From contig NZ_JAPDPI010000040.1 of assembly GCF_026013615.1 (NCBI RefSeq), positions 1-48,509 of the forward strand: a stretch of 48,509 bases of DNA, given 5' to 3'. Shown piece after piece: positions 8,167 through 48,419 of this stretch. Positions within the stretch are counted from its first letter, which is position 1, and each line of letters begins with the position of its first letter. This stretch comes from Plebeiibacterium marinum (GTDB taxonomy: Bacteria > Bacteroidota > Bacteroidia > Bacteroidales > Marinilabiliaceae). The notes under the pieces are model-generated. The model searched no databases. It was not told the origin of the DNA and saw only the letters and a program-made list of their open reading frames with translations. A program made the translations under genes and the position numbers.

Positions 8167-8492
8167 ATATCACATTTTCCAATATAATGTTAGCAAGAAA
8201 AATCCAACGTCTTCCCTCCACACACCCTCTGACTCTCCCGAATAAAAGTTCGGAACAGGCTCTAAAGGGAGAACCATCAACTCGCATAGAGCGAGGGATT
8301 TCCCATTTAGGGGTTAGGGGTGAGCGGTTGGAGCTTTAACTATTTCAGGAGTTTTCTTGCTGATACTAAATAACAATACAGTGTAAAAACGAAATTGTTT
8401 CAGAAAAAATGTATTAAAACAAAAAAAAGGAGCAATTGAATATTGTATTCACATACTCAAATATTCGCAATAAAAAGTTCGTGGATTTATAT
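8167..8492. other. Gene-free stretch with GC-rich patch and start of repeat region
   Basis: No supported ORF. A patch at about 8210-8330 has TAGGGGTTAGGGGTGAGCGG and neighbouring CCTCTGACTCTCCC. Similar (C/T)CCCC..AAGGGG..GTGAGCG patches recur at about 15726-15755 and, inverted, at about 48447-48485. These look like dispersed intergenic elements. Confidence 0.5.
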
Positions 8493-9209
8493 AGTTTATA
8501 AAGTTCGTAAAGTTTTTAAAGTTTATAAAGTCACAAGGTTCTTAAAGTTATAAGATTGAATAGCTGGAAATATTTTACTATACAGAGAAACTTACAGATT
8601 ACAAGTGATAGGACTAACTAATCCCCATCCCACCACCTTTGGCGGTGTACTTCCCCTTAACTTCAATGTTAAAGGGAAGAGTGATTCCCGCCAAGCTTAC
8701 TATTTGTAAGTTGAGAAAAAACAGATAAGCTAAAGCGAAGCGTCCTATCAGCTAAAGGCGCAGCCGTCCTACTAGCAATTTACCACCAGCTATATTCCAT
8801 TTCGCTCATTAACCTTTACTCGTTTTAATAAATTTAAAACATATTTCACTCAGTAATTATAGTTTATAAAGTTCGTAAAGTTTATAAAGTTACAAGGTTC
8901 TTAAAGTTATAAGATTGAATAGCTGGAAATATTTTACTATACAGAGAAACTTACAGATTACAAGTGATGGGACTAACTAATCCCCATCCCACCACCTTTG
9001 GCGGCGTACTTCCCCTTAACTTCAATGTTAAGGGGAAGAGTGATTCCCGCCAAGCTTACTATTTGTAAGTTGAGCAAAACAGATAAGCTAAAGCGAAGCG
9101 TCCTATCAGCTAAAGGCGCAGCCGTCCTACTAGCTATTTACCACCAACTATATTCCATTTCGCTCATTAACCCTTACTCGTTTAAATAAATTTAAAACAT
9201 ATTTCACTC
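8493..9209. repeat. Tandem duplication of a ~350-bp non-coding unit
   Basis: Copy A spans about 8493-8851 and copy B about 8861-9209, nearly identical along their length. Copy A is longer because it has one extra 9-base unit in the opening GTTTATAAA/GTTCGTAAA array. Each copy contains a 9-bp-period array, a TTCCCCTTAAC..GTTAA(A/G)GGGAAG hairpin and a GC-rich block of two imperfect 22-bp repeats (AGCTAAAGCGAAGCGTCC / AGCTAAAGGCGCAGCCGTCC). No ORF, transposase or terminal inverted repeats were seen. Small ORFs here (for example 8998-9189) are artefacts of the repeat. Confidence 0.85.
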
Positions 9210-9228: not shown

Positions 9229-9292
9229 AAAACAGATAAGCTAAAGCGAAGCGTCCTATCAGCTAAAGGCGCAGCCGTCCTACTAGCTATTT
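9229..9292. repeat. Third, partial copy of the GC-rich block
   Basis: The GC-rich end block of the tandem unit (from AAAACAGATAAGC to CTACTAGCTATTT) appears a third time, directly before the 3' end of rsgA. A related block in the opposite orientation lies at about 15623-15666, so this block is a dispersed repeat in its own right. Confidence 0.8.
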
Positions 9293-10458: not shown

Positions 10459-10951
10459 AATAAATATGATGAAGGAATATAGGGTAAAAACACCTGTCGC
10501 TTATACCAGCTCCGGATACCCGATTATAGGAATATGTAATGAAGTTTTAATCATCCGTTACAAAGATAAGGAATATTAGTGAATTGCCAATAGTGGAGGG
10601 TGAAGGGCTGAGGGCGGAGAGCTGAGAGCGAAGGGCGAAGGGCAGAGAGTGAAGCGAAGTGCGGAGAGCGAAGGGCAAAGGGTGGAGAGTTTGTTGCTTA
10701 GAGCGGATACCAATAGCAAAGGGCTCATTATTGACGGCTTTGTTTGCGTTAAGGATTGAAGCGGATACCCCACAGCGTTATTTTGCAAAGTAGTTTTTTT
10801 AGATAAAGTTGAAATCGGGCATAAACAGGATTTGCAGATAGCACAGGGAGCGAGGAGTATGAGCGGAAAGCCTGACCCGAGCAATGGTTTTTGTGCTTAA
10901 GAAAATGTTTATACCGAGGGGAACGCCCAACTAATTTTTATATGTTTACGG
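10459..10951. other. Gene-free spacer between rsgA and the WD40 gene
   Basis: About 490 bases separate two divergently oriented genes. Apart from the GA-rich heptamer array at 10594-10692 I see no gene. An ORF on the minus strand here (10576-10884) runs through the repeat and has a low-complexity Leu/Ser/Pro translation, so I do not regard it as real. Confidence 0.6.
10594..10692. repeat. Degenerate GA-rich heptamer array
   Basis: Words with a 7-base period and the pattern nnGAGGG/nGAAGGG: TGGAGGG, TGAAGGG, CTGAGGG, CGGAGAG, CTGAGAG, CGAAGGG, CGAAGGG, CAGAGAG and TGAAGCG run in unbroken 7-bp phase from 10594 to about 10656. After a slip, further units continue to about 10692. Confidence 0.8.
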
Positions 10952-12109: not shown

Positions 12110-12173
12110 ACAATGAACAATGACCAATGAACAATGACCAATGAACAATGACCAATGAACAATGACCAATGAC
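12091..12173. repeat. CAATGAA/CAATGAC heptamer array
   Basis: One 6-base unit (12091-12096) and then eleven consecutive 7-base units, alternating largely CAATGAA and CAATGAC, to 12173. The array overlaps the last six codons and the stop of the WD40 gene. Confidence 0.95.
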
Positions 12174-15575: not shown

Positions 15576-15624
15576 GTAGCGGATAGCAAATAGCGGATAG
15601 CGGATAGCGGATAGCGGATAGCAC
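15576..15624. repeat. ATAGCGG heptamer array directly after accC
   Basis: Seven units in perfect 7-bp phase, starting at the base after the accC stop codon: GTAGCGG, ATAGCAA, four ATAGCGG, ATAGCAC. It runs straight into an inverted copy of the GC-rich dispersed block. Confidence 0.93.
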
Positions 15625-38039: not shown

Positions 38040-38876
<837 letters not shown>

Positions 38877-38937
38877 TGTTCAGTACCCAGATAAAAGCTA
38901 AAAGTTAAAAGTCCAAATACTTAATAATAAACAATTT

Positions 38938-38971
38938 GATTTTGAGATGCAGATTCTCTCATCTCAAAATC
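38938..38971 (+). promoter_or_regulatory. 12-bp stem-loop between nifH and nifI1
   Basis: GATTTTGAGATG and CATCTCAAAATC form a perfect 12-bp stem with a 10-base loop. No T-run follows, so it is more likely an RNA-processing or 3'-end-stabilising hairpin that raises nifH message over the distal genes than a terminator. Confidence 0.7.
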
Positions 38972-38999
38972 ACTAATTAAAAAATAGGAGACCCATAAA

Positions 39000-39326
39000 A
39001 TGTTAATGATAAAAGCAATTGTTCGTCCAGAAAAATCAAGCATAGTATTAAAGGCATTATTTGAAGCCGGTTATGTTGCAGTTACAAAATCACCTGTAGT
39101 AGGTAGGGGTAAACAACGTGGTATCAAAATCGGTGATGTTACTTACGATGAGTTACCAAAGGAACAGTTAATCATGGTGGTAAAAGATGAAGATAAGGAT
39201 TTTGCAGTAAGCACAATCATGGAAGCTGCCCGTTCAGGTGAATCAGGAGCTTTTGGTGATGGTAAAATATTTATCTCTCCGGTAGAGGAAGCATACACTA
39301 TCTCAAGAGGTGTAAAAGAGTTGTAA
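39000..39326 (+). CDS. nifI1: PII-like nitrogenase regulator NifI1
   Basis: 108 residues, GlnB/PII fold: MIKAIVRPEKSSIVLKALFEAGY at the N-terminus, the T-loop region around SPVVGRGKQRGIKIGDVTYDELPK, and GDGKIFISPVEEAYTISRG, the conserved C-signature of NifI1. With NifI2 it forms a complex that binds NifDK and blocks activity when ammonium rises and 2-oxoglutarate falls. Its place after nifH and before nifI2-nifD is diagnostic. The start at 39000 is favoured by a GGAG about 10 bases upstream; a second ATG lies two codons in. Confidence 0.95.
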   Translation: MLMIKAIVRPEKSSIVLKALFEAGYVAVTKSPVVGRGKQRGIKIGDVTYDELPKEQLIMVVKDEDKDFAVSTIMEAARSGESGAFGDGKIFISPVEEAYTISRGVKEL

Positions 39327-39329
39327 AAA

Positions 39330-39427
39330 GAGATAATAGACATTAGATAAGAGATAATAGATTTTCTATCTCTTATCAATATTACAACAAGTCTATTATC
39401 TAATATCTATCATCTAATAATCTAAGA
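39330..39427. repeat. Heptamer arrays in inverted arrangement, nifI1-nifI2 gap
   Basis: Left: AGAGATA, ATAGACA, TTAGATA, AGAGATA, ATAGATT in 7-bp phase from 39330. Right: GTCTATT, ATCTAAT, ATCTATC, ATCTAAT, AATCTAA from 39391. The two are reverse-complementary words (TAGATAATAGAC-type), so the gap can fold into a stem. A middle hairpin, AGATTTTCTATCT, lies between. Confidence 0.9.
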
Positions 39428-39431
39428 GAAC

Positions 39432-39809
39432 ATGAAAAAAGTAATGGCAATAATAAACATCGACAAGATGAACGCTACAAAGAAAGCCCTTTTAGATGCC
39501 AATATCACTTCGATGACTGCATCGGGTAAAGTATTTGGACGAGGAAAAGGACTTTGGGAAGCAAAAATTCTTGAAGGTGTTAAAAACAATCAACCTGAGG
39601 CTTTAGAGCACTTAGGGAAAGAACCTCGACTTCGCGCACAAAGAGTATTAGAAATCGTAGTTAACGATTCTTTTGTTCAGCCTGCTGTTGATGCAATAAT
39701 TGAAGCCAATCAGGATGCACCACATGGATGTGGAAAGATATTCGTAATGCCAATTATGGATGTGATTCAGGTAAGAACAGGCGTTACTGGCAGCAAAGCA
39801 GTGGATTAA
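39432..39809 (+). CDS. nifI2: PII-like nitrogenase regulator NifI2
   Basis: 125 residues, PII fold with a longer T-loop than NifI1: MKKVMAIINIDKMNATKKAL, VFGRGKGLWEAKILEGVKNNQPEALEHLG (the extended loop), RVLEIVVNDSFVQPAVDAII and CGKIFVMPIMDVIQVRTG. It partners NifI1 in ammonium-responsive inhibition of NifDK; 2-oxoglutarate and ATP release it. It lies 37 bases before nifD. Confidence 0.95.
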   Translation: MKKVMAIINIDKMNATKKALLDANITSMTASGKVFGRGKGLWEAKILEGVKNNQPEALEHLGKEPRLRAQRVLEIVVNDSFVQPAVDAIIEANQDAPHGCGKIFVMPIMDVIQVRTGVTGSKAVD

Positions 39810-39846
39810 GAAAGTAAGTTTTTATCACATTTTAAAAACAAAACTC

Positions 39847-41487
39847 ATGGTTAAAAAGAAAGATTTTTCAGCAGGATTACCGGATCCTACTCCATTAATA
39901 GAAGATATTATTAGCAAATACCCTAGAAAAGTAGCTAAGAAACGTGCTAAGGCGATGATTGCTAATACCCCTGATGAAGATCAGGAAATCCAGGCTAACG
40001 TTAGAACAATTCCAGGAATCATTACCCAGCGAGGATGTACTTATGCAGGATGTAAGGGGGTGGTTTTAGGACCAACAAGAGATATTATCAACCTGGTTCA
40101 CGGCCCAATTGGTTGTAGCTTTTATGCCTGGTTAACACGTCGTAACCAAACCAGACCAGAAACTCCAACTGATGAAAACTATATGATGTATGCATTTTCA
40201 ACTGATATGCAGGATGAAAACATCGTATTTGGTGGTGAGGTAAAATTGAAACAAGCAATTCGTGAAGCTTTCGAATTATTTAAACCTAAAGCTATTGGTG
40301 TATTCTCTACATGTCCGGTAGGTTTGATTGGTGATGATGTTCACGCTGTATCTCGCGAAATGAAAGAAGAGTTAGGCATCAACATATTTGGTTTTTCTTG
40401 TGAAGGTTACCGGGGTGTATCTCAGTCGGCTGGTCACCACATTGCAAACAACCAGGTATTTAAAAATGTTGTTGGTTTAAATGACCGCCCACGTAAATCG
40501 AAGTTCCAGCTGAACTTATTGGGTGAATATAATATTGGTGGTGATGCCTTTGAACTAGAGGCTTTATTTGAAGAAGTTGGAATTGAGTTGATTTCTACAT
40601 TCTCAGGTAACTCTACTATCAAGAGTATGGAATATGCCCATACAGTTGACTTGAACATTGTAATGTGTCACCGTTCAATCAACTACATCGCAGAGATGAT
40701 GGAAGAGAAATATGGTATTCCATGGATTAAAGCCAACTTTATCGGATCAGAAGCTACAGCTAAAACACTTCGTAAAATTGGTGAATTCTTTGATGATGCA
40801 GAACTAACAGCTAAGATAGAAGAAGTTATTGCCCGCGAATCTGCGAAAGTAAAAGAAGTAATGGACGCTATCAAACCTAAAACAGAAGGTAAATTAGCGA
40901 TGATGTTTGTAGGAGGTTCTCGTGCTCACCATTACCAGGAGCTATTTAAAGAACTTGGTGTAACAACAGTATCAGCCGGTTACGAATTTGCTCACCGTGA
41001 TGACTACGAAGGTCGTAAAGTGATTCCTAATATTAAAATTGATGCAGATACCCGTAACATTGAAGAAATCACTGTTACTAAAACAGAGAATCCTGAATTA
41101 TGGAGGGAAGATCTTGTTGAAAAGAAAGCTGCGTTGGAGAAAAAAGGATATGAGTTTAGCGATTATGAAGGTATGATGCCTGAGATGACTAAAAACTCAT
41201 TGGTTATTGATGATATTTCTCACCTTGAAACTGAAAAGTTAATTGAGTTCTACAAGCCAGACATTTTCTGTGCCGGTATCAAAGAGAAATATGTAGTGCA
41301 AAAATCTGGTGTGCCATTGAAACAGTTACACAGTTACGATTACGGTGGCCCTTATACTGCGTTCGGTGGAGCAATTAATTTCTTTAAAGAAATGGAACGT
41401 ATGTTAGTTACCGATGTGTGGAAATTAGTTGACACACCTTGGAAATCGGAGCCAGAGATTGTAGGCAGCATGACTATTAACGCTTAA
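39847..41487 (+). CDS. nifD: Nitrogenase MoFe protein alpha chain
   Basis: 546 residues. Carries FeMo-cofactor and half of the P-cluster. P-cluster cysteines: GCTYAGCKGV (C64), HGPIGCSFYAW (C90), STCPVGLIGDD (C156). Active-site residues: Q193 and H197 in VSQSAGHHIAN; cofactor ligands C274 (VMCHRSINY) and H495 (HSYDYGGPYTAF). An insertion of about 50 residues (roughly 385-440, EFAHRDDYEGRKVIPNIKID...) is shared with Clostridium pasteurianum-type group III NifD and absent from proteobacterial NifD. All molybdenum-enzyme residues are present and there is no AnfG/VnfG gene, so it is not an alternative nitrogenase. Confidence 0.97.
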   Translation: MVKKKDFSAGLPDPTPLIEDIISKYPRKVAKKRAKAMIANTPDEDQEIQANVRTIPGIITQRGCTYAGCKGVVLGPTRDIINLVHGPIGCSFYAWLTRRNQTRPETPTDENYMMYAFSTDMQDENIVFGGEVKLKQAIREAFELFKPKAIGVFSTCPVGLIGDDVHAVSREMKEELGINIFGFSCEGYRGVSQSAGHHIANNQVFKNVVGLNDRPRKSKFQLNLLGEYNIGGDAFELEALFEEVGIELISTFSGNSTIKSMEYAHTVDLNIVMCHRSINYIAEMMEEKYGIPWIKANFIGSEATAKTLRKIGEFFDDAELTAKIEEVIARESAKVKEVMDAIKPKTEGKLAMMFVGGSRAHHYQELFKELGVTTVSAGYEFAHRDDYEGRKVIPNIKIDADTRNIEEITVTKTENPELWREDLVEKKAALEKKGYEFSDYEGMMPEMTKNSLVIDDISHLETEKLIEFYKPDIFCAGIKEKYVVQKSGVPLKQLHSYDYGGPYTAFGGAINFFKEMERMLVTDVWKLVDTPWKSEPEIVGSMTINA

Positions 41488-41492
41488 TCATT

Positions 41493-41498
41493 AGGAGG
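41493..41498 (+). promoter_or_regulatory. Shine-Dalgarno AGGAGG before nifK
   Basis: A perfect AGGAGG lies 8 bases before the nifK ATG, within the 19-base nifD-nifK gap. Strong SD sites are unusual in Bacteroidota and in this window. Confidence 0.65.
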
Positions 41499-41506
41499 AT
41501 TTTACT

Positions 41507-42889
41507 ATGTTATTACGACATACAACAGAAAAAGAAATAGATAGAAAGGCACTAACCGTTAACCCGGCAAAAACCTGTCAGCCGGTAGGTGCCATGTACG
41601 CAGCTTTGGGGGTTCACGGATGCTTGCCCCATAGCCACGGATCACAAGGATGTTGTTCTTATCACAGATCAGCCCTTACCCGCCACTATAAAGAGCCTGT
41701 AATGGCAGCCACTTCATCATTTACCGAAGGTTCTTCTGTATTTGGTGGTCAGGCCAACTTACTACAGGCAATCGGAACCATATTTTCAGTATACGATCCT
41801 GAAATCATTGCTGTTCACTCTACTTGTTTATCAGAAACAATTGGTGATGACCTTGGTCAGATCGTTGCAAAAGCTAAAACAGATGGTAAGATTCCTGAAG
41901 GAAAACATGTTATCCAGGCTCCAACCCCAAGTTATGTTGGTTCGCACGTAACCGGATACCACAATATGCTGGAAGCTATCGTTAAGTATTTTGCAATGAA
42001 AACTGACGAGGCTAAACGTCAGGTCAACCTGTTGGCAGGTTGGGTTGAGCCTTCAGATATGCGTGAGTTAAAAAGAATTACAGGAATGATGGGTATTAAA
42101 ACAGTATTGGTTCCTGATACTTCTGATGTTTTAGATACTCCTATGACTGGAAAGTTCGAAATGTACCCTAAAGGGGGAACTACCATTCCTGAATTAGTAA
42201 GCATGGGCGACAGCATGAAAACTGTAGCTTTAGGTGAATGGGGTACTAAAGGTGCTGCTGTAGCATTGGATAACCAATGTAAGGTTCCTTTTGATCTGAT
42301 TGATCTTCCAATCGGAGTAAAAGCTACAGACCGTTTCATCATGGCTTTATCAAAAGCAGGAGCAGTTTCTGTACCTGAGGCCATTAATGATGAAAGAGGT
42401 CGTTTAGTAGACTTAATCACCGACATGCACCAATATTTCTACGGAAAACGTGTTGCTTTATACGGAGATCCGGATCAGTTAATTCCAATGTGCGAGTTCT
42501 TATTAGATCTTGATATGATCCCTGCTTATGTTGTTTCAGGTACTCCTGGAAAATCTTTTGACAAAAAGATGAAAGCTGTATTTGGCGACAAAATTGACCA
42601 GGTTAAATTCAAGAATGGAGCAAATGCTGATATGTTCCAGTTGCATCAGTGGATCAAACAAGAAGGTGTTGATTTATTGATTGGTAACACATATGGAAAA
42701 TATATCGCTCGTGATGAGAAGATTCCTTTCCTAAGAATGGGATTCCCAATTGTTGACCGTGTTGGACATTCATATTTCCCAACTTTAGGTTACATGGGAG
42801 GAATTAGAATCCTTGAAAAAATGCTTGACTTATTAATGCAGCATCAGGATGAAACCTGTGATGAAGAAAAGGTTGAGCTTGTAATGTAA
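41507..42889 (+). CDS. nifK: Nitrogenase MoFe protein beta chain
   Basis: 460 residues, the short group III form without the ~50-residue N-terminal extension of proteobacterial NifK. Holds the other half of the P-cluster: CQPVGAMYAALGVHGCLPHSHGSQGC includes its cysteines, with STCLSETIGDDL the third ligand region. A conserved Ser near the cluster lies in the TSSFTEGSSVFGG stretch. C-terminal FPIVDRVGHSYFPTLGYMGG is typical. It pairs with NifD in an alpha2beta2 protein. The 19-base gap and strong SD after nifD favour balanced synthesis of the two chains. Confidence 0.97.
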   Translation: MLLRHTTEKEIDRKALTVNPAKTCQPVGAMYAALGVHGCLPHSHGSQGCCSYHRSALTRHYKEPVMAATSSFTEGSSVFGGQANLLQAIGTIFSVYDPEIIAVHSTCLSETIGDDLGQIVAKAKTDGKIPEGKHVIQAPTPSYVGSHVTGYHNMLEAIVKYFAMKTDEAKRQVNLLAGWVEPSDMRELKRITGMMGIKTVLVPDTSDVLDTPMTGKFEMYPKGGTTIPELVSMGDSMKTVALGEWGTKGAAVALDNQCKVPFDLIDLPIGVKATDRFIMALSKAGAVSVPEAINDERGRLVDLITDMHQYFYGKRVALYGDPDQLIPMCEFLLDLDMIPAYVVSGTPGKSFDKKMKAVFGDKIDQVKFKNGANADMFQLHQWIKQEGVDLLIGNTYGKYIARDEKIPFLRMGFPIVDRVGHSYFPTLGYMGGIRILEKMLDLLMQHQDETCDEEKVELVM

Positions 42890-42890
42890 T

Positions 42891-42980
42891 ATAAGATAAG
42901 AGATTATAGATAAGAGATCATAGACTTATGTTATTCGAGGACAAAGTATGTCTAATGTCTCTAATCTCTTATCTAAAAAT
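42891..42980. repeat. Heptamer arrays (AAGAGAT word family), nifK-nifE gap, first half
   Basis: ATAAGAT, AAGAGAT, TATAGAT, AAGAGAT, CATAGAC run in phase from 42891. GTATGTC, TAATGTC, TCTAATC, TCTTATC run from 42946. Complementary words (AGATAAGAGAT / ATCTCTTATCT) allow a stem. It starts two bases after the nifK stop. Confidence 0.9.
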
Positions 42981-43008
42981 CTTGAAGAATTTGTGTTTGC
43001 CAGAGGTT

Positions 43009-43094
43009 AAGACTAGCGGGGTGATTTCTCTTCGGAACGCCGAAGAATAATAGGTGGTATAAATTAATAAGTTACCCCGCCGGTCTTTATTTTT
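43009..43094 (+). terminator. Two-hairpin terminator-like element between nifK and nifE
   Basis: AAGAC-TA-GCGGGGT (43009-43022) pairs with ACCCCGC-CG-GTCTT (43074-43087). Inside, TCTTCGG-AACG-CCGAAGA (about 43029-43046) makes a second hairpin. A T-rich tract TTTATTTTT follows. It is the only GC-rich stretch of the gap. It could act as a partial terminator that lowers nifEN relative to nifHDK, or as a structured leader of nifE. Confidence 0.7.
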
Positions 43095-43097
43095 AAA

Positions 43098-43190
43098 AGT
43101 ATCAAGTAGTAAGTATCAAGATCCAAGACTTACTTACAACTTGAGAATCATCTTGATACTTGATACTTGTGTCTTATGTCTAATGAGAAA
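43098..43190. repeat. Heptamer arrays (AGTATCA/TTGATAC words), nifK-nifE gap, second half
   Basis: AGTATCA, AGTAGTA, AGTATCA, AGATCCA, AGACTTA run in phase from 43098. TTGATAC, TTGATAC, TTGTGTC, TTATGTC run from 43153. AGTATCAAG and CTTGATACT are reverse complements, so the unit can form a hairpin shortly before nifE (43217). Confidence 0.92.
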
Positions 43191-43216
43191 TCAATCTTCT
43201 ATTAAAAAATAAGATT

Positions 43217-44548
43217 ATGTCAAAATATATTAAAGATAGAACACCCCAGATTGTTACCATTGGCGAAGACCAACATGATTTAGCCTGCGAAAAGAAATCA
43301 GTAGCAGGATCTGTAAGTCAGAGAGCTTGTGTTTTTTGTGGTTCAAGGGTAGTGCTATACCCAATAGCAGATGCCCTGCATATTGTTCATGGCCCAATAG
43401 GATGTGCCGCCTATACATGGGATATCAGAGGAGCAATGTCGTCAGGACCTCAATTGCACCGACTTAGCTTTTCGACCGACTTACGCGAGAAAGATGTGGT
43501 TTTTGGAGGAGAAAAAAAATTATACAGTGCCCTAACCGAACTTATTGAAGCCTACAAACCCAAGGCTGTTTTTGTATACAGCACATGTATTGTAGGCGTT
43601 ATTGGCGACGATGTGGAGGCTGTTGCAAGACAGTTAACCAAAGAAACAGGTGTAGAAGTAATACCTGTTATGAGCGAAGGTTTTAAAGGAACAAAGAAAG
43701 ATGGATACAAAGCTGCCTGTGATGCATTAATGACTTTGGTGGGAACAGATGACGATTATGTTGCACCAAAATACAGCATTAACATTTTAGGTGATTTTAA
43801 CCTGGCCGGAGAGCTTTGGATTTTATCTGAATACTATAAAAAAATTGGCGTGGAAATAATTGCATGCCTTACCGGCGACGGCCGTATAGAACAAGTCAGA
43901 AGATGTCATAAAGCATCTTTAAATGTTGTTCAATGTTCTGGTAGCATGATGCATGTTGCCAAAGAAATGAAAGACAAGTACGATATCCCTTTCAAAAAGG
44001 TATCATACTTTGGTATTGAGGATATGTCGGATGCCCTATACGAGGTTGCACAGCACTTCAACGATCCTGAGCTAATGGCCAATGCAAGAGCCCTTGTATC
44101 TGAAGAGCTGGCCAAATTAATCCCTGCACTTCAACCCTACCGCCAAAAACTGGAAGGTAAAAAGGCAGCAATTTATGTAGGGGGAGCCTTTAAAGCCATC
44201 AGCTTAGTAAAGGCCTTGCGATTACTGGGAATGCAAACTGTGGTTGTTGGATCTCAAACAGGTAATAAGGATGACTACAACCTATTGAGCAAAATCTGTG
44301 ACAAAGGAACTGTAATTGTAGATGATTCTAACCCAAATGAATTATCTGACTTTGTTAAACAAACGGGAGCAGATTTGTTTATAGGCGGCGTTAAGGAAAG
44401 GCCTATTGCATATAAGCTGGGTCTAGGTTTCTGTGATCACAACCACGAACGCAAAGAAGCATTAGCCGGATATGTGGGTATGCTCAACTTCGCAAAAGAA
44501 GTGTACGCTTCGTGCATGAGCCCTGTGTGGAAGTTTATTGAAAAGTAG
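43217..44548 (+). CDS. nifE: FeMo-cofactor scaffold protein NifE
   Basis: 443 residues, homologous to NifD. NifEN receives the NifB-co cluster and completes it with molybdenum and homocitrate. Cluster-binding segments: RACVFCGSRVVLYPIADALH, HGPIGCAAYTWD and YSTCIVGVIGDD for the 4Fe-4S site, and VVQCSGSMMHVAKEMKDKYD in place of the NifD cofactor-Cys loop. The C-terminal HNHERKEALAGYVGMLNFAKE and SPVWKFIEK are typical. Codon use is broader than in nifHDK. Its last stop codon overlaps the first unit of a heptamer array. Confidence 0.95.
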   Translation: MSKYIKDRTPQIVTIGEDQHDLACEKKSVAGSVSQRACVFCGSRVVLYPIADALHIVHGPIGCAAYTWDIRGAMSSGPQLHRLSFSTDLREKDVVFGGEKKLYSALTELIEAYKPKAVFVYSTCIVGVIGDDVEAVARQLTKETGVEVIPVMSEGFKGTKKDGYKAACDALMTLVGTDDDYVAPKYSINILGDFNLAGELWILSEYYKKIGVEIIACLTGDGRIEQVRRCHKASLNVVQCSGSMMHVAKEMKDKYDIPFKKVSYFGIEDMSDALYEVAQHFNDPELMANARALVSEELAKLIPALQPYRQKLEGKKAAIYVGGAFKAISLVKALRLLGMQTVVVGSQTGNKDDYNLLSKICDKGTVIVDDSNPNELSDFVKQTGADLFIGGVKERPIAYKLGLGFCDHNHERKEALAGYVGMLNFAKEVYASCMSPVWKFIEK

Positions 44549-44760
44549 TATCAAGATGCAAGTATCAAGACACAAGACTATTTACTTGATGTAAATATAT
44601 GTTACAACTTGATACTAATCATTAATCAGTCAAGTCTCAAAAGCAAGATAAAAATCATCTTGACACTTGATACTTGATACTTGATACTCATTATTTAATC
44701 CATCAAGTCTCATTTGCAAGATGTACTTCATCTTGATACTTGATACTTGATACTTGATAC
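44547..44760. repeat. Heptamer arrays and 63-bp duplication filling the nifE-nifN gap
   Basis: Left: AGTATCA, AGATGCA, AGTATCA, AGACACA in phase from 44547, overlapping the nifE stop. Right: TTGACAC and three TTGATAC (44660-44687), then four TTGATAC (44733-44760) ending 8 bases before nifN. The two right arrays each end a ~63-bp unit (about 44625-44687 and 44698-44760, period 73) containing a CAAGAT..ATCTTG hairpin. Confidence 0.93.
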
Positions 44761-44768
44761 TAAAAATT

Positions 44769-46181
44769 ATGGCCGACAAAATACCAGTATTAAAAGAACG
44801 TAAAAACTTCGTTGCCACAAGGAATGCCTGCAAGGTATGTTCCCCATTGGGCGGAAGTATAGCATATAAAGGAATCAAAGGATGTGTTCCTGTAATTCAT
44901 GGCGGACAAGGATGTGCCACTTACATCCGCCGATATTTGATTAGTCACTACAAGGAACCTGTTGATATTGCCTCTTCAAACTTTAGTGAAGAATCTACAA
45001 TTTTTGGTGGTGAAGCAAACCTCAGTGCAGCTATTCAAAATGTAATAACCCAATACAAGCCCGAAGTAGTTGGAGTTTGTACTACCTGTTTAGCTGAAAC
45101 TATTGGTGACGATATTGGACAGGCTCTGAGAAATTACAAGGCAGCAAATGCCGATGACAAGAGTATTCCAGAATTTGTATACTCATCAACACCCAGCTAC
45201 CAGGGATCGCATATGGATGGTTTTCATGAAACGGTAGCTGCCATCACCAAAACATTTGCCACAAAAGTAGAGCTCAACGAAAAAGTAAACATTTTTCCGG
45301 GATTTTTATCTACTGAGGATTTAAGGATGCTAAAGGATATTCTGGAAGATTTTGAAATAGACTATATCATGATCCCTGACTACTCTGAAACTTTGGATAA
45401 TCCGGTTTGGGATACTTACCACCGGATTCCGGATGGAGGAACATCTGTTGAGGATTTAAAGATGATGGGAGGTGCCAAAGCCAGTATTGAATTTGGTCCG
45501 GTTTTAAACAGAGGAAACCTGGCCGGAAGAGTGAAAAACAAAGACCTGGCATTAACCGGAGCTGAATATCTTGAAAAAGAATTTGGAGTAAAAAAGTTTG
45601 GCATCAACATCCCGGTTGGCATTACCCAATCTGATGAGTTATTTGAAATATTGAGCGATATCAGCGGAAAGGATATTCCTAAAAAATACACCATGGAACG
45701 TGGCCGCTTAATAGATGCCTATGCTGATGGTCATAAATATGTTTTTGGGAAAAAAGCTGTTGTATACGGCGAAGAGGATCTGGTAATAGCCATGACAAGT
45801 TTTCTGGATGAAATTGGTGTGGAAGTTATTTTAGCCGCTTCGGGAGGAAACAGCGGTATCCTGAAAAACGAAATTGAAAAATGTGCACCTGTTCATGGCA
45901 AAACTACCGAGGTACTTGGTGATTTGGATTTTGAAAAAATCAATGAGCTGTGCATCGATATGAAACCTGATTTCATCATTGGAAATAGCAAGGGATATTA
46001 CATAGCCCGTGAACTAAACATCCCAATTATAAGAGTAGGCTTCCCTATTCACGACAGGATTGGAGGTTCAAGGCTGAAACATATCGCATACAAAGGCGCT
46101 CAGGAAAACTTTGATAAGATATGCAATGCCATGATGGAATACAAACAAGAAAACTCAGAAGTTGGGTATAAGTATATATAA
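44769..46181 (+). CDS. nifN: FeMo-cofactor scaffold protein NifN
   Basis: 470 residues from the ATG at 44769; the frame extends upstream by five codons into the TTGATAC array, but that TTG is an artefact of the repeat. NifK homologue and partner of NifE. Visible: NACKVCSPLGGSIAYKGIKG, HGGQGCATYIRRYLISHYKEP, SSNFSEESTIFGG, CTTCLAETIGDD and the late GNSKGYYIARELNIPIIRVGFPIHDR. Separate from NifB here (no NifN-B fusion). Followed by another repeat-filled gap. Confidence 0.94.
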   Translation: MADKIPVLKERKNFVATRNACKVCSPLGGSIAYKGIKGCVPVIHGGQGCATYIRRYLISHYKEPVDIASSNFSEESTIFGGEANLSAAIQNVITQYKPEVVGVCTTCLAETIGDDIGQALRNYKAANADDKSIPEFVYSSTPSYQGSHMDGFHETVAAITKTFATKVELNEKVNIFPGFLSTEDLRMLKDILEDFEIDYIMIPDYSETLDNPVWDTYHRIPDGGTSVEDLKMMGGAKASIEFGPVLNRGNLAGRVKNKDLALTGAEYLEKEFGVKKFGINIPVGITQSDELFEILSDISGKDIPKKYTMERGRLIDAYADGHKYVFGKKAVVYGEEDLVIAMTSFLDEIGVEVILAASGGNSGILKNEIEKCAPVHGKTTEVLGDLDFEKINELCIDMKPDFIIGNSKGYYIARELNIPIIRVGFPIHDRIGGSRLKHIAYKGAQENFDKICNAMMEYKQENSEVGYKYI

Positions 46182-46185
46182 ATAA

Positions 46186-46423
46186 AGTATCAAGTAGTAA
46201 GTATCAAAACACAAGATTATTTACATGATTTAGACATTTTGTTATTTACAGTTAATAAAAGATACAAATAAGAAAAACCATCAAGAAATATCAAACACTC
46301 ATATGAAAGCTTTAAATCATCTTGATACTTGAGTCTTGATACAAATTAACAACCATCAAGCTAGTTCAAATATCTATAAGCAAGATATAAACATCTTGAT
46401 ACTTGATACTTGATACTTGATAC
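46186..46423. repeat. Heptamer arrays filling the nifN-nifB gap
   Basis: Left: AGTATCA, AGTAGTA, AGTATCA, AAACACA in phase from 46186, five bases after the nifN stop. Right: four perfect TTGATAC at 46396-46423, ending 14 bases before nifB. A CAAGAT..ATCTTG hairpin precedes the right array, as in the nifE-nifN gap. Confidence 0.93.
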
Positions 46424-46437
46424 TAAAACGAAAGCAT

Positions 46438-47703
46438 ATGATTGACTTCAAAAAACACCCCTGTTTCAATAAAGAAGCAAAAGGACAATATGCGAGAGTG
46501 CATTTGCCAGTAGCTCCTAAATGCAATATTAGTTGTAACTATTGTAACCGCAAATTCGACTGTGTAAACGAGAGTCGTCCAGGTGTTACATCAAATATAC
46601 TTACACCGGAGCAGTCAATAGTATATTTAACATCGCTACGCGAAAAAATGCCCCATCTATCGGTAGTTGGAATTGCCGGCCCTGGTGATCCGTTTGCCAA
46701 TCCGGATGAAACAATGGAAACCTTGCGCCAGGTAAGGGCAAATTTTGAAGATATGATTCTTTGCGTTTCATCAAATGGTTTAAACATTGCTCCTTACATT
46801 GAAGAACTGGCTGAATTAAAAGTAAGCCACGTAACCATAACTATCAATGCACTGGATGCTAAAATACTTGAAAAAGTATATCGCTGGGTAAGGTTTGAAA
46901 AGAAAGGATACTTTGGTTTGGCCGGAGCTGAACTGCTTTTAGAAAAACAATTAGAAGCTATTGATAAGCTAAAAGCTGCTGGTATTACGGTTAAAGCCAA
47001 TGCGATTGTGATACCTGGAATTAACGACAAGCACCTTCCTGAGTTAGCAGAAGGATTGGCAGCCAAAGGGGTTGACCTGATGAATACCATCCCATTGATT
47101 CCGGTGGAAGATACTCCATTTGCTGATTTAGAAGAGCCTGCTTCGGCTTATATGAAAGAAATACGCAAGAAAATAGGCGAATTCCTTCCACCTATGACAC
47201 ACTGTAGCCGATGCAGAGCTGATGCTGCCGGGTTATTAGGAAAAGACAGTACTGAGGCCATGGAACTATTATCTGAAGCTGCTAAAGTACGTATCGACAA
47301 AGGCGATACTGCAGAAAGGCCTTATGTTGCCGTAGCCAGTAACGAAGGAATATTGGTGAACCAGCACCTTGGTGAAGCAGAAAGGCTTTATATATTTAAA
47401 GAAACGCCTAACGGATACAAATTAGTAAACCAAAGGGTTACTCCTCCAAGAGGAAATGGCGACAAACGTTGGGAAGAACTGGGTGATACATTAAGCGACT
47501 GCAGAGCCATATTGGTTGGCGGTGTTGGTCCTAAACCTTCAAAAATACTGGCCCAATCCGGAATTGAAGTCATCGAAATGTCCGGATTGATAGATCAGGG
47601 TATGGATGCTGTATACAAAGGAATGGAACTAAGAACCATTACCAAAGCCGAAAGCTTTAAATGCGGTGCAGGATGCTCAGGCACAGGTACTGGGTGCGGG
47701 TGA
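46438..47703 (+). CDS. nifB: FeMo-cofactor core synthase NifB (radical SAM) with NifX-like domain
   Basis: 421 residues from the ATG at 46438 (MIDFKKHPCFNKEAKGQYARV); an upstream TTG in the repeat array is rejected. The radical SAM domain has C-x3-C-x2-C (KCNISCNYCNRKFDC), GIAGPGDPFANPDET and IPGINDKH. After about residue 290 (ERPYVAVASNEGILVNQHLGEA) a NifX/NafY-type domain follows. It ends in a Cys-rich tail FKCGAGCSGTGTGCG. NifB fuses two 4Fe-4S clusters with carbide insertion to form NifB-co, handed to NifEN. It should be essential for the system in this genome. Confidence 0.96.
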   Translation: MIDFKKHPCFNKEAKGQYARVHLPVAPKCNISCNYCNRKFDCVNESRPGVTSNILTPEQSIVYLTSLREKMPHLSVVGIAGPGDPFANPDETMETLRQVRANFEDMILCVSSNGLNIAPYIEELAELKVSHVTITINALDAKILEKVYRWVRFEKKGYFGLAGAELLLEKQLEAIDKLKAAGITVKANAIVIPGINDKHLPELAEGLAAKGVDLMNTIPLIPVEDTPFADLEEPASAYMKEIRKKIGEFLPPMTHCSRCRADAAGLLGKDSTEAMELLSEAAKVRIDKGDTAERPYVAVASNEGILVNQHLGEAERLYIFKETPNGYKLVNQRVTPPRGNGDKRWEELGDTLSDCRAILVGGVGPKPSKILAQSGIEVIEMSGLIDQGMDAVYKGMELRTITKAESFKCGAGCSGTGTGCG

Positions 47704-47707
47704 TAAA

Positions 47708-47795
47708 GCGGATAGCTAATAGCTAATAGCTAATAGCTTATAGCCAATAGCGGATAGCGGATAGCGGATAGCTGGTAGCTAAGAGCTTATAGCTT
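47708..47795. repeat. GCTAATA/GCGGATA heptamer array after nifB
   Basis: Twelve units in unbroken 7-bp phase from 47708: GCGGATA, three GCTAATA, GCTTATA, GCCAATA, three GCGGATA, GCTGGTA, GCTAAGA, GCTTATA. The GCGGATA word is shared with the accC array at 15576 (ATAGCGG in another phase). Confidence 0.95.
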
Positions 47796-47909
47796 AAAAA
47801 CATTTAAGCATCATGTTTACCATGCTGTAAATAAAAGCCCATTCAGGGGTTTGGGGTAAATGCAAGCTGCAAACCAAAGCCCTGACAGCCAAGAAAACTG
47901 AGATTGCTA

Positions 47910-47987
47910 CAAACAATCAACAATGAGCAATGAGCAATTAACTCTATTGATAATTGTTGATTGATAATTGATAACTGATAATTGTAA
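47910..47987. repeat. Inverted heptamer arrays before the ferredoxin gene
   Basis: Left: CAAACAA, TCAACAA, TGAGCAA, TGAGCAA from 47910. Right: ATTGATA, ATTGTTG, ATTGATA, ATTGATA, ACTGATA, ATTGTAA from 47946. CAATCAACAAT in the left pairs with ATTGTTGATTG in the right. Confidence 0.9.
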
Positions 47988-48011
47988 AATTAACCTATAA
48001 TATTCAAAGCA

Positions 48012-48317
48012 ATGAAAAAACCGGAATATCACATTTTAGTTTGCAACTCATACCGTGTTGCAGGAGATGCTCAAGGATTTTGTAACAAAAACGGAGCAAC
48101 CGACTTTATTCCATACATTATTGAAGAATGTAACGACAGAGGATTAGACGTTGCAGTTTCAAGTACTGCATGTTTAAATGTTTGCAGCCAGGGGCCGATC
48201 ATGGTAATCCATCCGAACAATCTTTGGTATGGCCAGATTACAGAAGAAAGAATTGATGAAATCCTTGACGCACTTGAAGAAGGCGAAGCTGTAGAAGAAT
48301 ATCTGATAACTGATTAA
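48012..48317 (+). CDS. Thioredoxin-like 2Fe-2S ferredoxin
   Basis: 101 residues, the (2Fe-2S) ferredoxin domain of the Shethna FeSI / Clostridium-type thioredoxin-fold family. Ligand cysteines are spread as VCNSYRVAGDAQGFC at the N-terminus and STACLNVCSQGP in the middle, and ITEERIDEILDALEEG closes the fold. Similar proteins follow nifB in group III nif clusters of Chlorobi and Clostridia. Likely role: carrying electrons to NifH or serving cofactor assembly; which of the two is not shown by sequence. It probably ends the nif operon; an inverted heptamer region follows. Confidence 0.92.
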   Translation: MKKPEYHILVCNSYRVAGDAQGFCNKNGATDFIPYIIEECNDRGLDVAVSSTACLNVCSQGPIMVIHPNNLWYGQITEERIDEILDALEEGEAVEEYLITD

Positions 48318-48321
48318 CTTA

Positions 48322-48419
48322 TTAGACAATTAGATAATAGATAAGAGATTTTGAGACTATTGTACTGCATTAACAACCTGAGTTCGATAATTATCGGGTC
48401 TATTATCTCTTATCTAGTC
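48322..48419. repeat. Inverted heptamer arrays after the ferredoxin gene
   Basis: TTAGACA, ATTAGAT, AATAGAT, AAGAGAT, TTTGAGA run in phase from 48322. GTCTATT, ATCTCTT, ATCTAGT run from 48398. The same word family as in the nifI1-nifI2 and nifK-nifE gaps; the arms pair (AATAGATAAGAGAT with ATCTCTTATCTAG-type). Confidence 0.9.

Follow-up and report, generated by a model that had tools for sequence, protein, structure and literature searches.

The gaps between the nif genes of Plebeiibacterium marinum carry facing arrays of 7-bp units, in which a word repeated at one edge of a gap is answered at the other edge by its reverse complement, and in a comparison of 23 other genomes such arrays are concentrated in nif gaps relative to other co-directional gaps. 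With a probability of about 40%, we regard them as hairpins whose arms would grow by 7-bp slippage and which would be kept in nif operons as mRNA structures.

Facing arrays in the nif gaps of the window

In the window, by which we mean the whole stretch of DNA analysed (48,509 nucleotides), sequence identity at lag 7 reaches 0.42-0.54 in five gaps (nifI1-nifI2, nifK-nifE, nifE-nifN, nifN-nifB and nifB-fdx), and the same gaps show 0.22-0.32 at lags 6 and 8. After fdx the lag-7 identity is 0.31 over the whole 192-base stretch, a low value due to the shortness of the arms there. From nifI1 to fdx (39327-48011), 11 out of 11 detected period-7 segments have a reverse-complement partner within their own gap, which confirms the facing arrangement that the original prediction had described. 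The partner matches are significant when compared with 60 random gaps of the genome (empirical p <= 0.03); with other lag-7 gaps as the reference, several of them having words in common with the nif gaps, a p of 0.05 is reached by the two nifI1-nifI2 segments only. The segment scan covers gaps between two genes, so that the arms after fdx lie outside its scope. The features are the following:

39329..39363, + strand: forward arm in the nifI1-nifI2 gap, words AGAGATA/AGATAAG, from segment scan, matched by a reverse-complement segment
39392..39424, + strand: facing arm in the nifI1-nifI2 gap, words TCTATTA/TCTAATA, from segment scan, matched by a reverse-complement segment
42894..42928, + strand: first nifK-nifE hairpin, forward arm (AGATAAG AGATTAT AGATAAG AGATCAT AGACTTA), from segment scan and fold
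42953..42977, + strand: first nifK-nifE hairpin, facing arm, base-paired to its forward counterpart in the predicted fold
42991..43089, + strand: structured, conserved but non-heptameric element flanked by the nifK-nifE hairpins (model R1)
43098..43132, + strand: second nifK-nifE hairpin, forward arm (AGTATCA AGTAGTA AGTATCA AGATCCA AGACTTA), from segment scan and fold
43150..43184, + strand: second nifK-nifE hairpin, facing arm (CTTGATA units), from segment scan and fold
44547..44581, + strand: nifE-nifN gap, forward arm that shares bases with the nifE stop codon, from predicted fold
44657..44689, + strand: nifE-nifN gap, inner facing arm (CTTGATA units), from segment scan
44731..44761, + strand: nifE-nifN gap, outer facing arm with its end 7 bases upstream of the nifN ATG, from segment scan and fold
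46186..46220, + strand: nifN-nifB gap, forward arm, from predicted fold
46393..46424, + strand: nifN-nifB gap, facing arm with its end 13 bases upstream of the nifB ATG, from segment scan and fold
47708..47796, + strand: nifB-fdx gap, TAGC(N)3 array of about 12 units downstream of the nifB stop, with a weak facing match, from segment scan
47913..47938, + strand: nifB-fdx gap, CAATGA(N) forward arm, from segment scan
47945..47985, + strand: nifB-fdx gap, ATTGATAA facing arm, from segment scan
48326..48352, + strand: after fdx, forward arm (AGATAAT/AGATAAG), read by eye and from predicted fold
48397..48418, + strand: after fdx, facing arm, from predicted fold

The positions claimed for the arrays relative to the coding sequences hold as well. 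The AGTATCA... array begins inside the nifE stop codon (TAG, 44546-44548), at 44547, and the arrays upstream of nifN and nifB end at 44761 and 46424, respectively, the corresponding ATGs lying at 44769 and 46438. Words differ between gaps with the period constant at 7, as had been proposed, and they also differ between species; the unbroken phase is found within each arm (about 3-13 units) but was overstated for whole gaps. For the TAGC array that follows nifB, only a weak facing match was found (score 13, p 0.03), and the CAATGA/ATTGATAA pair of the same gap is separate from it and close to fdx. No partner was found for a weak array after nifH (38889-38935), and no Rfam family reached the gathering score between 38000 and 48509.

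Distribution inside and outside the nif loci

Tandem 7-bp units are frequent elsewhere in the P. marinum genome. The genome scan called for in the original prediction revealed an excess of lag-7 identity above chance outside the window (z about 17), and period-7 arrays are present in 46 of 466 sampled intergenic gaps, with about 3.9 expected, in a sample that excludes eight short contigs (L131-L137 and L140). The pairing of forward and reverse-complement arrays within one gap, also anticipated, did not turn out to be general outside the window, where it was seen in 2/43 co-directional, 4/13 convergent and 1/6 divergent segments. When the two halves of co-directional lag-7 gaps outside the window were compared, the direct signal was strong (z 8.8) and no inverted signal was found (z 0.6). 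Other runs of at least five genes in the sample carry arrays in 17 of 175 gaps, none of them paired. Divergent gaps have a lower mean lag-7 identity in this genome; given segments in 5 of 67 of them, and in 8 of 34 in a Paludibacter MAG (G153), avoidance of divergent gaps is not claimed. Column-restricted variation inside the arrays is modest (p<0.05 in 8 of 40 arrays), and slippage predicts likewise.

Across 23 phylogenetically non-independent genomes, that of P. marinum excluded, facing arrays occur in 17/116 co-directional nif gaps versus 2/453 background gaps (Fisher p 8e-11, odds ratio about 39), and arrays of any kind, paired or not, in 34/116 versus 22/453. For the first 16 of these genomes the counts of facing arrays are 16/107 in nif gaps versus 2/419 in the background (13/107 versus 2/419 at a stricter threshold), with arrays of any kind in 31/107 nif gaps; genome by genome, facing arrays are higher in nif in six, lower in one and tied in nine. 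The numbers per genome are small because the background consists mostly of one 18-20 kb stretch for each smaller genome (3.1 kb only for G002). The seven genomes added last (G002, G005, G011, G022, G033, G046 and G147), for which short nif loci were used, have paired arrays in 1/9 nif gaps versus 0/34 background gaps.

The concentration is also seen in two congeners. In Labilibacter marinus, 1.5 kb of nif gaps hold 6 segments versus 2 in 16.0 kb of sampled background, and in Saccharicrinis aurantiacus 2.5 kb hold 5 versus 1 in 18.7 kb; in both, the sampled background is at chance level and the nif segments are all facing. Array presence is patchy, with 34 of 77 nif loci bearing them. A further genome of the same genus (G003) has no period-7 segment in 205 sampled background gaps (1.6 expected by chance) or in its five nif gaps, and these array-free gaps fold ordinarily (z -2.3, n=5), so that arrays are dispensable in this organism.

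Known heptamer systems

The original prediction had named the STRR heptamers of cyanobacteria as a parallel but had treated the paired inverted layout with changing words as new to it. This did not stand: as far as the available parts of the reports go, precedents are found in the P6b element of Nostoc trnL (PMC4476775, PMC3488679), in STRR hairpins (PMC2670836) and in heptamers of Xanthomonas and Nostoc (PMC4692102). The kind of element is already known from P6b and STRR, and it is the concentration of facing heptamer arrays in nif gaps that was not found in the open literature searched.

The P6b stem-loop of the trnL (UAA) intron of Nostoc and Calothrix is built of paired heptanucleotide repeats of two interchangeable classes (TDNGATT and NNTGAGT). 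Its stem arms consist of degenerate 7-nt units in variable number, and replacement of one word class by the other has happened repeatedly, leaving the structure similar (PMC4476775, PMC3488679). The nif arrays share with it opposed arms of 7-nt units that pair, as well as the exchange of words between relatives with pairing retained. However, P6b as described there is one locus in a cyanobacterial group I intron, whereas the nif arrays sit between protein genes, in many operon gaps, with many words and mostly in Bacteroidota. The cyanobacterial STRR heptamers are likewise 7-bp tandem units that form hairpins in gaps, upstream of hoxW and between hupS and hupL, and roles in stability or coupling have been proposed for those in hydrogenase gaps; they belong to another phylum, and the portion of the report at hand describes neither a systematic facing-word layout nor a nif concentration (PMC2670836). 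By our own reading of the part available, the repeats ttgtcagttgtcag... and ccactgactactgac in the Nostoc hupS-asr0689 gap are facing period-7 words, marked 'no hairpin' by the authors (PMC2408588).

The G-rich heptamers reported in Xanthomonas and Nostoc by Rehm (2015) are found on the sense strand downstream of stops and, upstream of starts, on the antisense strand, mostly between aligned genes, a polarity like that of the nif arrays, and one example has two repeats inverted; in the sections available they differ in that each genome has one G-rich word type, studied as quadruplex-forming and not as paired arms (PMC4692102). The TAACTGA heptamers described by MacGregor (2015) in marine Beggiatoaceae, some Cyanobacteria and five Bacteroidetes are also intergenic, near start codons and patchy in distribution, and other heptamers occur in some Bacteroidetes gaps as well, but the excerpt available concerns one word in direct repeats, with 169 direct sets and one indirect set in the main genome (PMC4679880). 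Operon-gap stems have been linked to relative transcript levels in selective RNA processing and stabilisation operons, such as the intercistronic stem-loops of Clostridium cip-cel (PMC4423207), and at the nifH1 processing-site stem-loop of Anabaena variabilis (PMC4284476). The accessible parts of these two reports give no heptameric description, and they studied function, whereas the nif arrays are known from sequence.

Word turnover, folding and possible origins

Within a gap, both edges carry matching words (z 9.4 versus all permutations and, within the same locus, z 3.0 with p 0.0012), and the same permutation test found no direct-repeat matching between edges. Words are also swapped between relatives at the same site with pairing kept. 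The nifE-nifN gap holds AGTATCA/TGATACT in the window and in S. aurantiacus (L022) and AGTATAA/TTATACT in L. marinus (L021), and the arms after fdx are built of AGATAAG in the window, AGTCATT in L. marinus and GTCAATA in a third relative (L023), each with its own facing arm. The persistence of pairing through a change of word is a hint that folding counts for more than the sequence itself.

In the reading that we favour, an intercistronic nif hairpin would consist of two arms of one 7-bp word read in opposite directions, which would lengthen or shorten by replication slippage in 7-bp steps, as suggested by the period and by differences in unit number between relatives. If the cluster is co-transcribed, the polycistronic nif mRNA could carry long stems directly downstream of one gene's stop codon and upstream of the start codon that follows. 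These stems may be retained by helping to set the relative levels of nif mRNA segments via 3'-end protection, processing or pausing, on the model of the intercistronic stem-loops of other operons. Any word would suffice provided that the facing arm matches it, hence the different words at the same gap in related species. Should the nif concentration reflect function, these gaps would be a set of natural, rapidly re-written operon hairpins with pairing kept and sequence free, and a clean system for testing how spacer structure affects nitrogenase subunit ratios, which matter for the transfer of nif clusters between hosts. A bolder version, which we consider rather unlikely, holds that the nif operons of Bacteroidota contain a regulatory element with no fixed sequence, namely a hairpin defined solely by two matching opposed 7-bp word arrays at the gap edges; selection would act on the match and not on the word, so that lineages swap the word in both arms, and a genome-level factor (a polymerase habit or a repeat-binding protein) would set which words occur and whether arrays exist.

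Predicted folding bears out in part the proposal that the arrays are structured spacers of nif transcripts, for which nif concentration and edge word matching also speak. The folding z of nif gaps is -3.5 in six genomes (n=35) versus -2.0 in operon-run gaps of five of them (n=211; p 2.8e-5), and in P. marinum it is -4.95 (n=6), with five of six gaps below -3. A stable stem is thus predicted for its own nif gaps; the effect is much weaker over all 77 relatives' loci (mean -2.62 in array-bearing nif gaps, n=61, versus -2.31 in array-free ones, n=60 sampled, and -2.20 in ordinary array-free co-directional gaps of the P. marinum genome), where arrays appear to add hardly any folding stability. Also against the proposal, the arms lack the greater tolerance of G·U than of A·C that an RNA helix under selection would show: 30 G·U and 35 A·C were counted (p 0.62) in 42 of 71 nif gaps, the remaining 29 having no arm pair above the score cut.

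This balance of mismatches is what double-stranded DNA would give, and it is quite possible, at somewhat less than even odds, that the arrays are neutral products of DNA dynamics, short inverted repeats in spacers acting as hot spots of 7-bp slippage without RNA function. The two arms would share a word by descent from one small starting hairpin and separate expansion, and the nif enrichment would reflect tolerance of long spacers or local history. In agreement with such an origin, direct-only arrays are common elsewhere in the P. marinum genome and in G153 (26 segments versus 1.0 expected in shuffles), arrays or words come and go inside one genus, and unit order is not preserved between arms. 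Neutrality alone, however, leaves unexplained the excess of facing arrays in nif over other co-directional gaps and their presence in the nif gaps but not in the sampled background of L. marinus and S. aurantiacus. If it were correct, these loci would still supply numerous examples with which to study why bacterial DNA slips by seven bases at a time.

The original prediction also considered the copying of 7-mers with inversion. A 7-bp step is consistent with slippage, but we find it improbable that a snap-back (quasi-palindrome) event copies an arm as its reverse complement to the other edge of the gap and so keeps the arms alike. Word matching between edges, balanced mismatch types and one word column changed in both arms of the L. 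marinus nifE-nifN gap, apparently in a coordinated manner, would all fit; nevertheless, several gaps have arms more than 100 bp apart, and the true order of units pairs no better than a shuffled one (mean percentile 0.45 in 56 segments, with low power as many units are alike), which argues weakly against copying of a whole arm.

Insertion of a dispersed mobile repeat of MITE or REP type deserves very little credence, even though an AGTATCA family with a similar core (AGACACAAGACT...TTTACA...TGTAAATCATCTTGATACTTG) is found again in several of the nif gaps in the window, L. marinus and S. aurantiacus, and 9 of the 26 overlapping genome matches of CTTGATACTTGATAC fall in nif gaps of the window. 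A given site carries wholly different words in different species, words also differ from gap to gap within a locus, and neither constant ends nor a constant dispersed consensus was seen. Genes of the REP transposase type (Y1_Tnp) are present in P. marinum and in 8/8 congeners searched, array-poor ones included; a REP-type transposase is not supported as the cause, Y1_Tnp occurring in 12/13 genomes, bearers and non-bearers alike.

Least probable of all is a translational role, either as stops in three frames behind the stop codon (7 not being a multiple of 3) or as a stem joining stop and start for re-initiation: arrays at most 20 bp from a stop do hold 175 sense-strand stop triplets versus 120 (SD 13) with unit columns permuted, and block all three sense frames in 20/25 cases and the antisense frames in 12/25 (own-genome sample, window included), but neither arrays further from stops nor the left arms in nif gaps of relatives (169 versus 155, SD 11) show such an excess, and the stop-to-start path through the predicted fold is no shorter than in shuffles, so that closure of the gap by the fold is not supported and a three-frame stop backup is supported for own-genome arrays adjoining stops only. 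Use of the stop codon itself as first unit is weak in P. marinum, with lag-7 identity in 10, 8 and 14 of 27 cases at the three stop positions, and higher in the nif gaps of relatives (16, 21 and 21 of 41).

Facing heptamer arrays in the nif cluster

The window lies in a draft genome of 5.62 Mb and 187 contigs (hereafter the host genome). Its NifN shares 91% identity with the protein of Labilibacter marinus (locus L021) and 89% with those of Saccharicrinis aurantiacus (L022) and Plebeiobacterium sediminum (L023), identities that place the window in the Bacteroidota of that group. NifN alone was used for protein comparison between genomes, its paralogues nifD, nifK and nifE surfacing in the same search. 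The gene order, which suggests that the nif cluster is co-transcribed, is as follows (names from the original prediction and from gene order):

38052-48317, nifH, nifI1, nifI2, nifD, nifK, nifE, nifN, nifB, ferredoxin

As had been claimed, period-7 arrays (lag-7 segments) are located by TRF and lag-7 scans in the gaps nifI1-nifI2, nifK-nifE, nifE-nifN, nifN-nifB and nifB-fdx, and the short arms after fdx were recognised by eye and in the predicted fold. The further claim, that a forward array is answered by its reverse complement before the next gene, was also borne out: each of the 11 segments detected between 39327 and 48011 has a reverse-complement counterpart within its own gap (p at most 0.03, with 60 random gaps as the reference). 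When other lag-7 gaps, whose words are often shared with the nif arms, serve as the comparison, only the two nifI1-nifI2 segments reach p 0.05. For the weak array after nifH a partner was looked for in the same gap and none was found, and the facing partner of the TAGC array after nifB is weak.

Distribution in the host genome and among relatives

The host genome was sampled over 1.07 Mb, the window counted in. Gaps outside the window show the lag-7 excess that the original prediction implied (identity 0.3106 vs 0.2916 after dinucleotide shuffling, z 17). Lags 14 and 21 show its harmonics, and lags 2 and 3 are raised too. The first 448 kb, window included, give the same lag picture as the later sample, and their coding DNA lacks the lag-7 peak. 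Lag-7 segments occur in 46 of 466 gaps, about 3.9 being expected, and their words are many (e.g. TAGCNNA, CAATGAN, AGRGYNR, GAAAGTT, TTAGTCA, AGATAAG, AGTATCA). The predicted pairing within one gap held in the nif gaps of the window but is uncommon in the host sample outside the window, where only 2/43 co-directional (between genes on the same strand), 4/13 convergent and 1/6 divergent segments are paired. Moreover, the two halves of co-directional array gaps in this genome are alike in direct, not inverted, orientation. Therefore, the general phenomenon is the direct heptamer array, and it is in the nif cluster that facing arrays are concentrated.

Three arrays in non-nif gaps of the window, all devoid of facing arms, are:

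12110-12173, period-7 array of CAATGA type
15577-15622, period-7 array of TAGCGGA type
10597-10682, period-7 array of purine-rich GGGCGAA type

In the 25 host arrays located 20 bp or less from stop codons (window in), sense-strand stop triplets number 175, against 120 (SD 13) with unit columns permuted; this enrichment is absent from host arrays elsewhere and from the relatives' nif gaps.

The facing-array pattern of nif is real and unusual. In the co-directional gaps of 17 genomes, the host included, arrays are found in 37/113 nif gaps vs 50/699 background gaps sampled outside nif, and facing arrays in 22/113 vs 6/699. Leaving the host out, the 16 remaining genomes give 31/107 vs 17/419 for arrays and 16/107 vs 2/419 for facing arrays (p 3.5e-10). 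Genome by genome, the facing rate of nif exceeds that of the background in 6, falls below it in 1 and equals it in 9. Seven extra genomes with short nif loci yield 1/9 vs 0/34 for facing arrays and 3/9 vs 5/34 for any arrays, which brings the facing counts over 23 genomes (host out) to 17/116 vs 2/453 (p 8e-11). Sampled backgrounds are at chance level in L. marinus (2 segments in 146 kb, 0.75 in shuffles) and S. aurantiacus (1 in 160 kb, 1.0 in shuffles), and despite this their nif loci carry 6 and 5 segments, respectively, all of them facing. Long gene runs other than nif rarely display the layout: it occurs in 0/175 gaps of the host sample (runs of 5 or more genes; arrays in 17), 0/89 in a Paludibacter MAG (arrays in 6), 1/17 in L. 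marinus (arrays in 2) and 0/13 in S. aurantiacus (arrays in none).

Among relatives, mostly Bacteroidota, 80 nif loci were fetched, of which 77 were usable and 3 gapless. They contain 101 lag-7 segments (3.0 in shuffles) spread over 34 loci, and facing partners were identified for 50 of these segments. Words differ between species, examples being CATAATT/AATTATG in Paludibacter MAGs (L075, L083), GTGAACC/GGTTCAC in L044, ATTTACT/AGTAAAT in L068 and GTTTATA/TATAAAC in L080. With junctions numbered from nifN by gene order, arrays occupy 13/30 gaps of 60 bp or more directly before nifN (facing arms in 5), 11/40 directly after it (6), 12/49 at the second junction after it (3) and 4/50 before nifE (3). 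MAGs labelled deltaproteobacterial, of 58-61% GC, bear nif heptamer arrays at L092 1151-1221, 4370-4525 and 8700-8868 (AAGTTTT-type words) and at L098 4435-4582; 4/5 and 1/2 of their segments are facing, and the layout is therefore not confined to Bacteroidota.

Arm matching, turnover and level of action

In 55 nif gaps of 28 loci, the opening 45 bases were compared with the reverse complement of the closing 45. Their likeness is far greater within a gap than between gaps (z 9.4), and it persists when the exchange of partners is restricted to gaps of one locus (z 3.0, p 0.0012). In direct orientation the edges of these gaps show no significant likeness (p 0.07 and 0.89). In close relatives, word and partner arm change together at the same site. 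The nifE-nifN gap carries AGTATCA/TGATACT in the window and L022 and AGTATAA/TTATACT in L021. After fdx, the word is AGATAAG, AGTCATT or GTCAATA, and in each case the facing arm matches it. Between L021 5911-6000 and L022 5847-6000, one word column of nifE-nifN was apparently replaced in several units of both arms (AGTATCA to AGTATAA), another unit variant being kept through the change (CTTTAAT in L021, CTTGAAT in L022). How well an arm matches its partner does not appear to depend on unit order (mean percentile 0.45 over 56 segments). This result favours separate expansion of two arms that have a word in common.

Turnover is visible in a congener, G003, whose NifN is 87% identical to that of the window: no lag-7 segments were detected in 205 gaps (380 kb sample) or in 5 nif gaps. 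Overlapping matches to the TAGC pattern number 78 in the host, 4 in one congener and none in 7 others, and those to CAATGA 20 in the host and none in 8 congeners. Within 149 genomes of the family and order, host included, scattered matches exist in 5 (TAGC) and 4 (CAATGA). Whatever makes the arrays can be gained and lost within one genus.

According to MacGregor 2015 (PMC4679880), Mrazek and colleagues found that, among long simple repeats, those with heptanucleotide units form the most frequent class in most of the genomes that they examined, and they suggested polymerase slippage. Known parallels are the heptamer repeats described there and in Rehm 2015 (PMC4692102), Nostoc trnL P6b (PMC4476775, PMC3488679), STRR hairpins (PMC2670836), repeats of short length in the Nostoc hyp region (PMC2408588) and cip-cel stem-loops (PMC4423207). 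In Anabaena variabilis, stable nifH1 transcripts and stem-loops at processing sites are reported (PMC4284476). PMC4046671, PMC4853749 and PMC8219983 do not affect the conclusion. Literature searches, confined to an open library that lacks most subscription papers, showed no account of facing heptamer arrays for nif operons of Bacteroidota among the listed titles and opening lines of abstracts.

The favoured reading, with a probability of about 40%, is that slippage would build intercistronic hairpins that are retained in nif operons for a role in the mRNA. That neutral DNA dynamics make the arrays is practically level with it. Gaps of 60-330 bp were folded in six genomes (host, L. marinus, S. 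aurantiacus, P. sediminum, the Paludibacter locus L083 and G003), larger sets being subsampled. Predicted folding is stronger in nif gaps (z -3.5, n=35) than in operon-run gaps of five of these genomes (-2.0, n=211; p 2.8e-5), and strongest in the host (-4.95) and L. marinus (-4.14). The nif gaps of G003, where no arrays were found, do not show this stronger folding (-2.29). Over all relatives, the predicted contrast is weak: nif gaps that bear arrays have -2.62 (n=61), those that lack them -2.31 (60 sampled), and ordinary array-free co-directional gaps of the host -2.20. A strand-symmetric count of arm mismatches gave 30 G·U vs 35 A·C in 42/71 gaps (29 lacking an arm pair above the score cut), and there is therefore no sign that RNA wobble pairs are favoured. 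Stop and start codons are not brought closer together by the predicted fold.

Further structured elements and repeats

A conserved structured element lies between two heptamer hairpins of the nifK-nifE gap:

42991-43089 (+), structured element with paired outer-stem changes (GCGGGGU/ACCCCGC vs GUGAGGC/GCCUCGC)

Of 54 sources, only the window, L021, L022, L023 and the G003 locus (L191) are matched by a model made from 4 sequences, which has one match in the host genome; no Rfam family matches the element at gathering score. It may be an RNA element specific to nif, placed between nifHDK and nifENB.

A second recurrent motif, located downstream of the nif cluster, has a C(A/T)GGGGTGG core adjoining a stem with a T run at its end; one further RNA was found at L022:

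L021 11109-11382, C(A/T)GGGGTGG-core motif
L022 11910-12084, the same motif
L023 10431-10731, the same motif
L191 13607-13850 (reverse complement), the same motif
L022 13204-13281 (-), Flavo-1 RNA (RF01705), 43.1 bits, barely above the gathering score of 42

The window also holds longer-unit repeats, the second entry lying in one long gap:

258-472, tandem repeat, 4.7 copies of a 41-bp unit, CTGCAATCTGCAGCAAGGTTTCCCC...
8474-8553, 8728-8771, 9086-9136, 9239-9289, period-9 TTTATAAAG array plus a 22-24-bp tandem repeat, AGCTAAAGGCGAAGCCGTCCTA.., at three places
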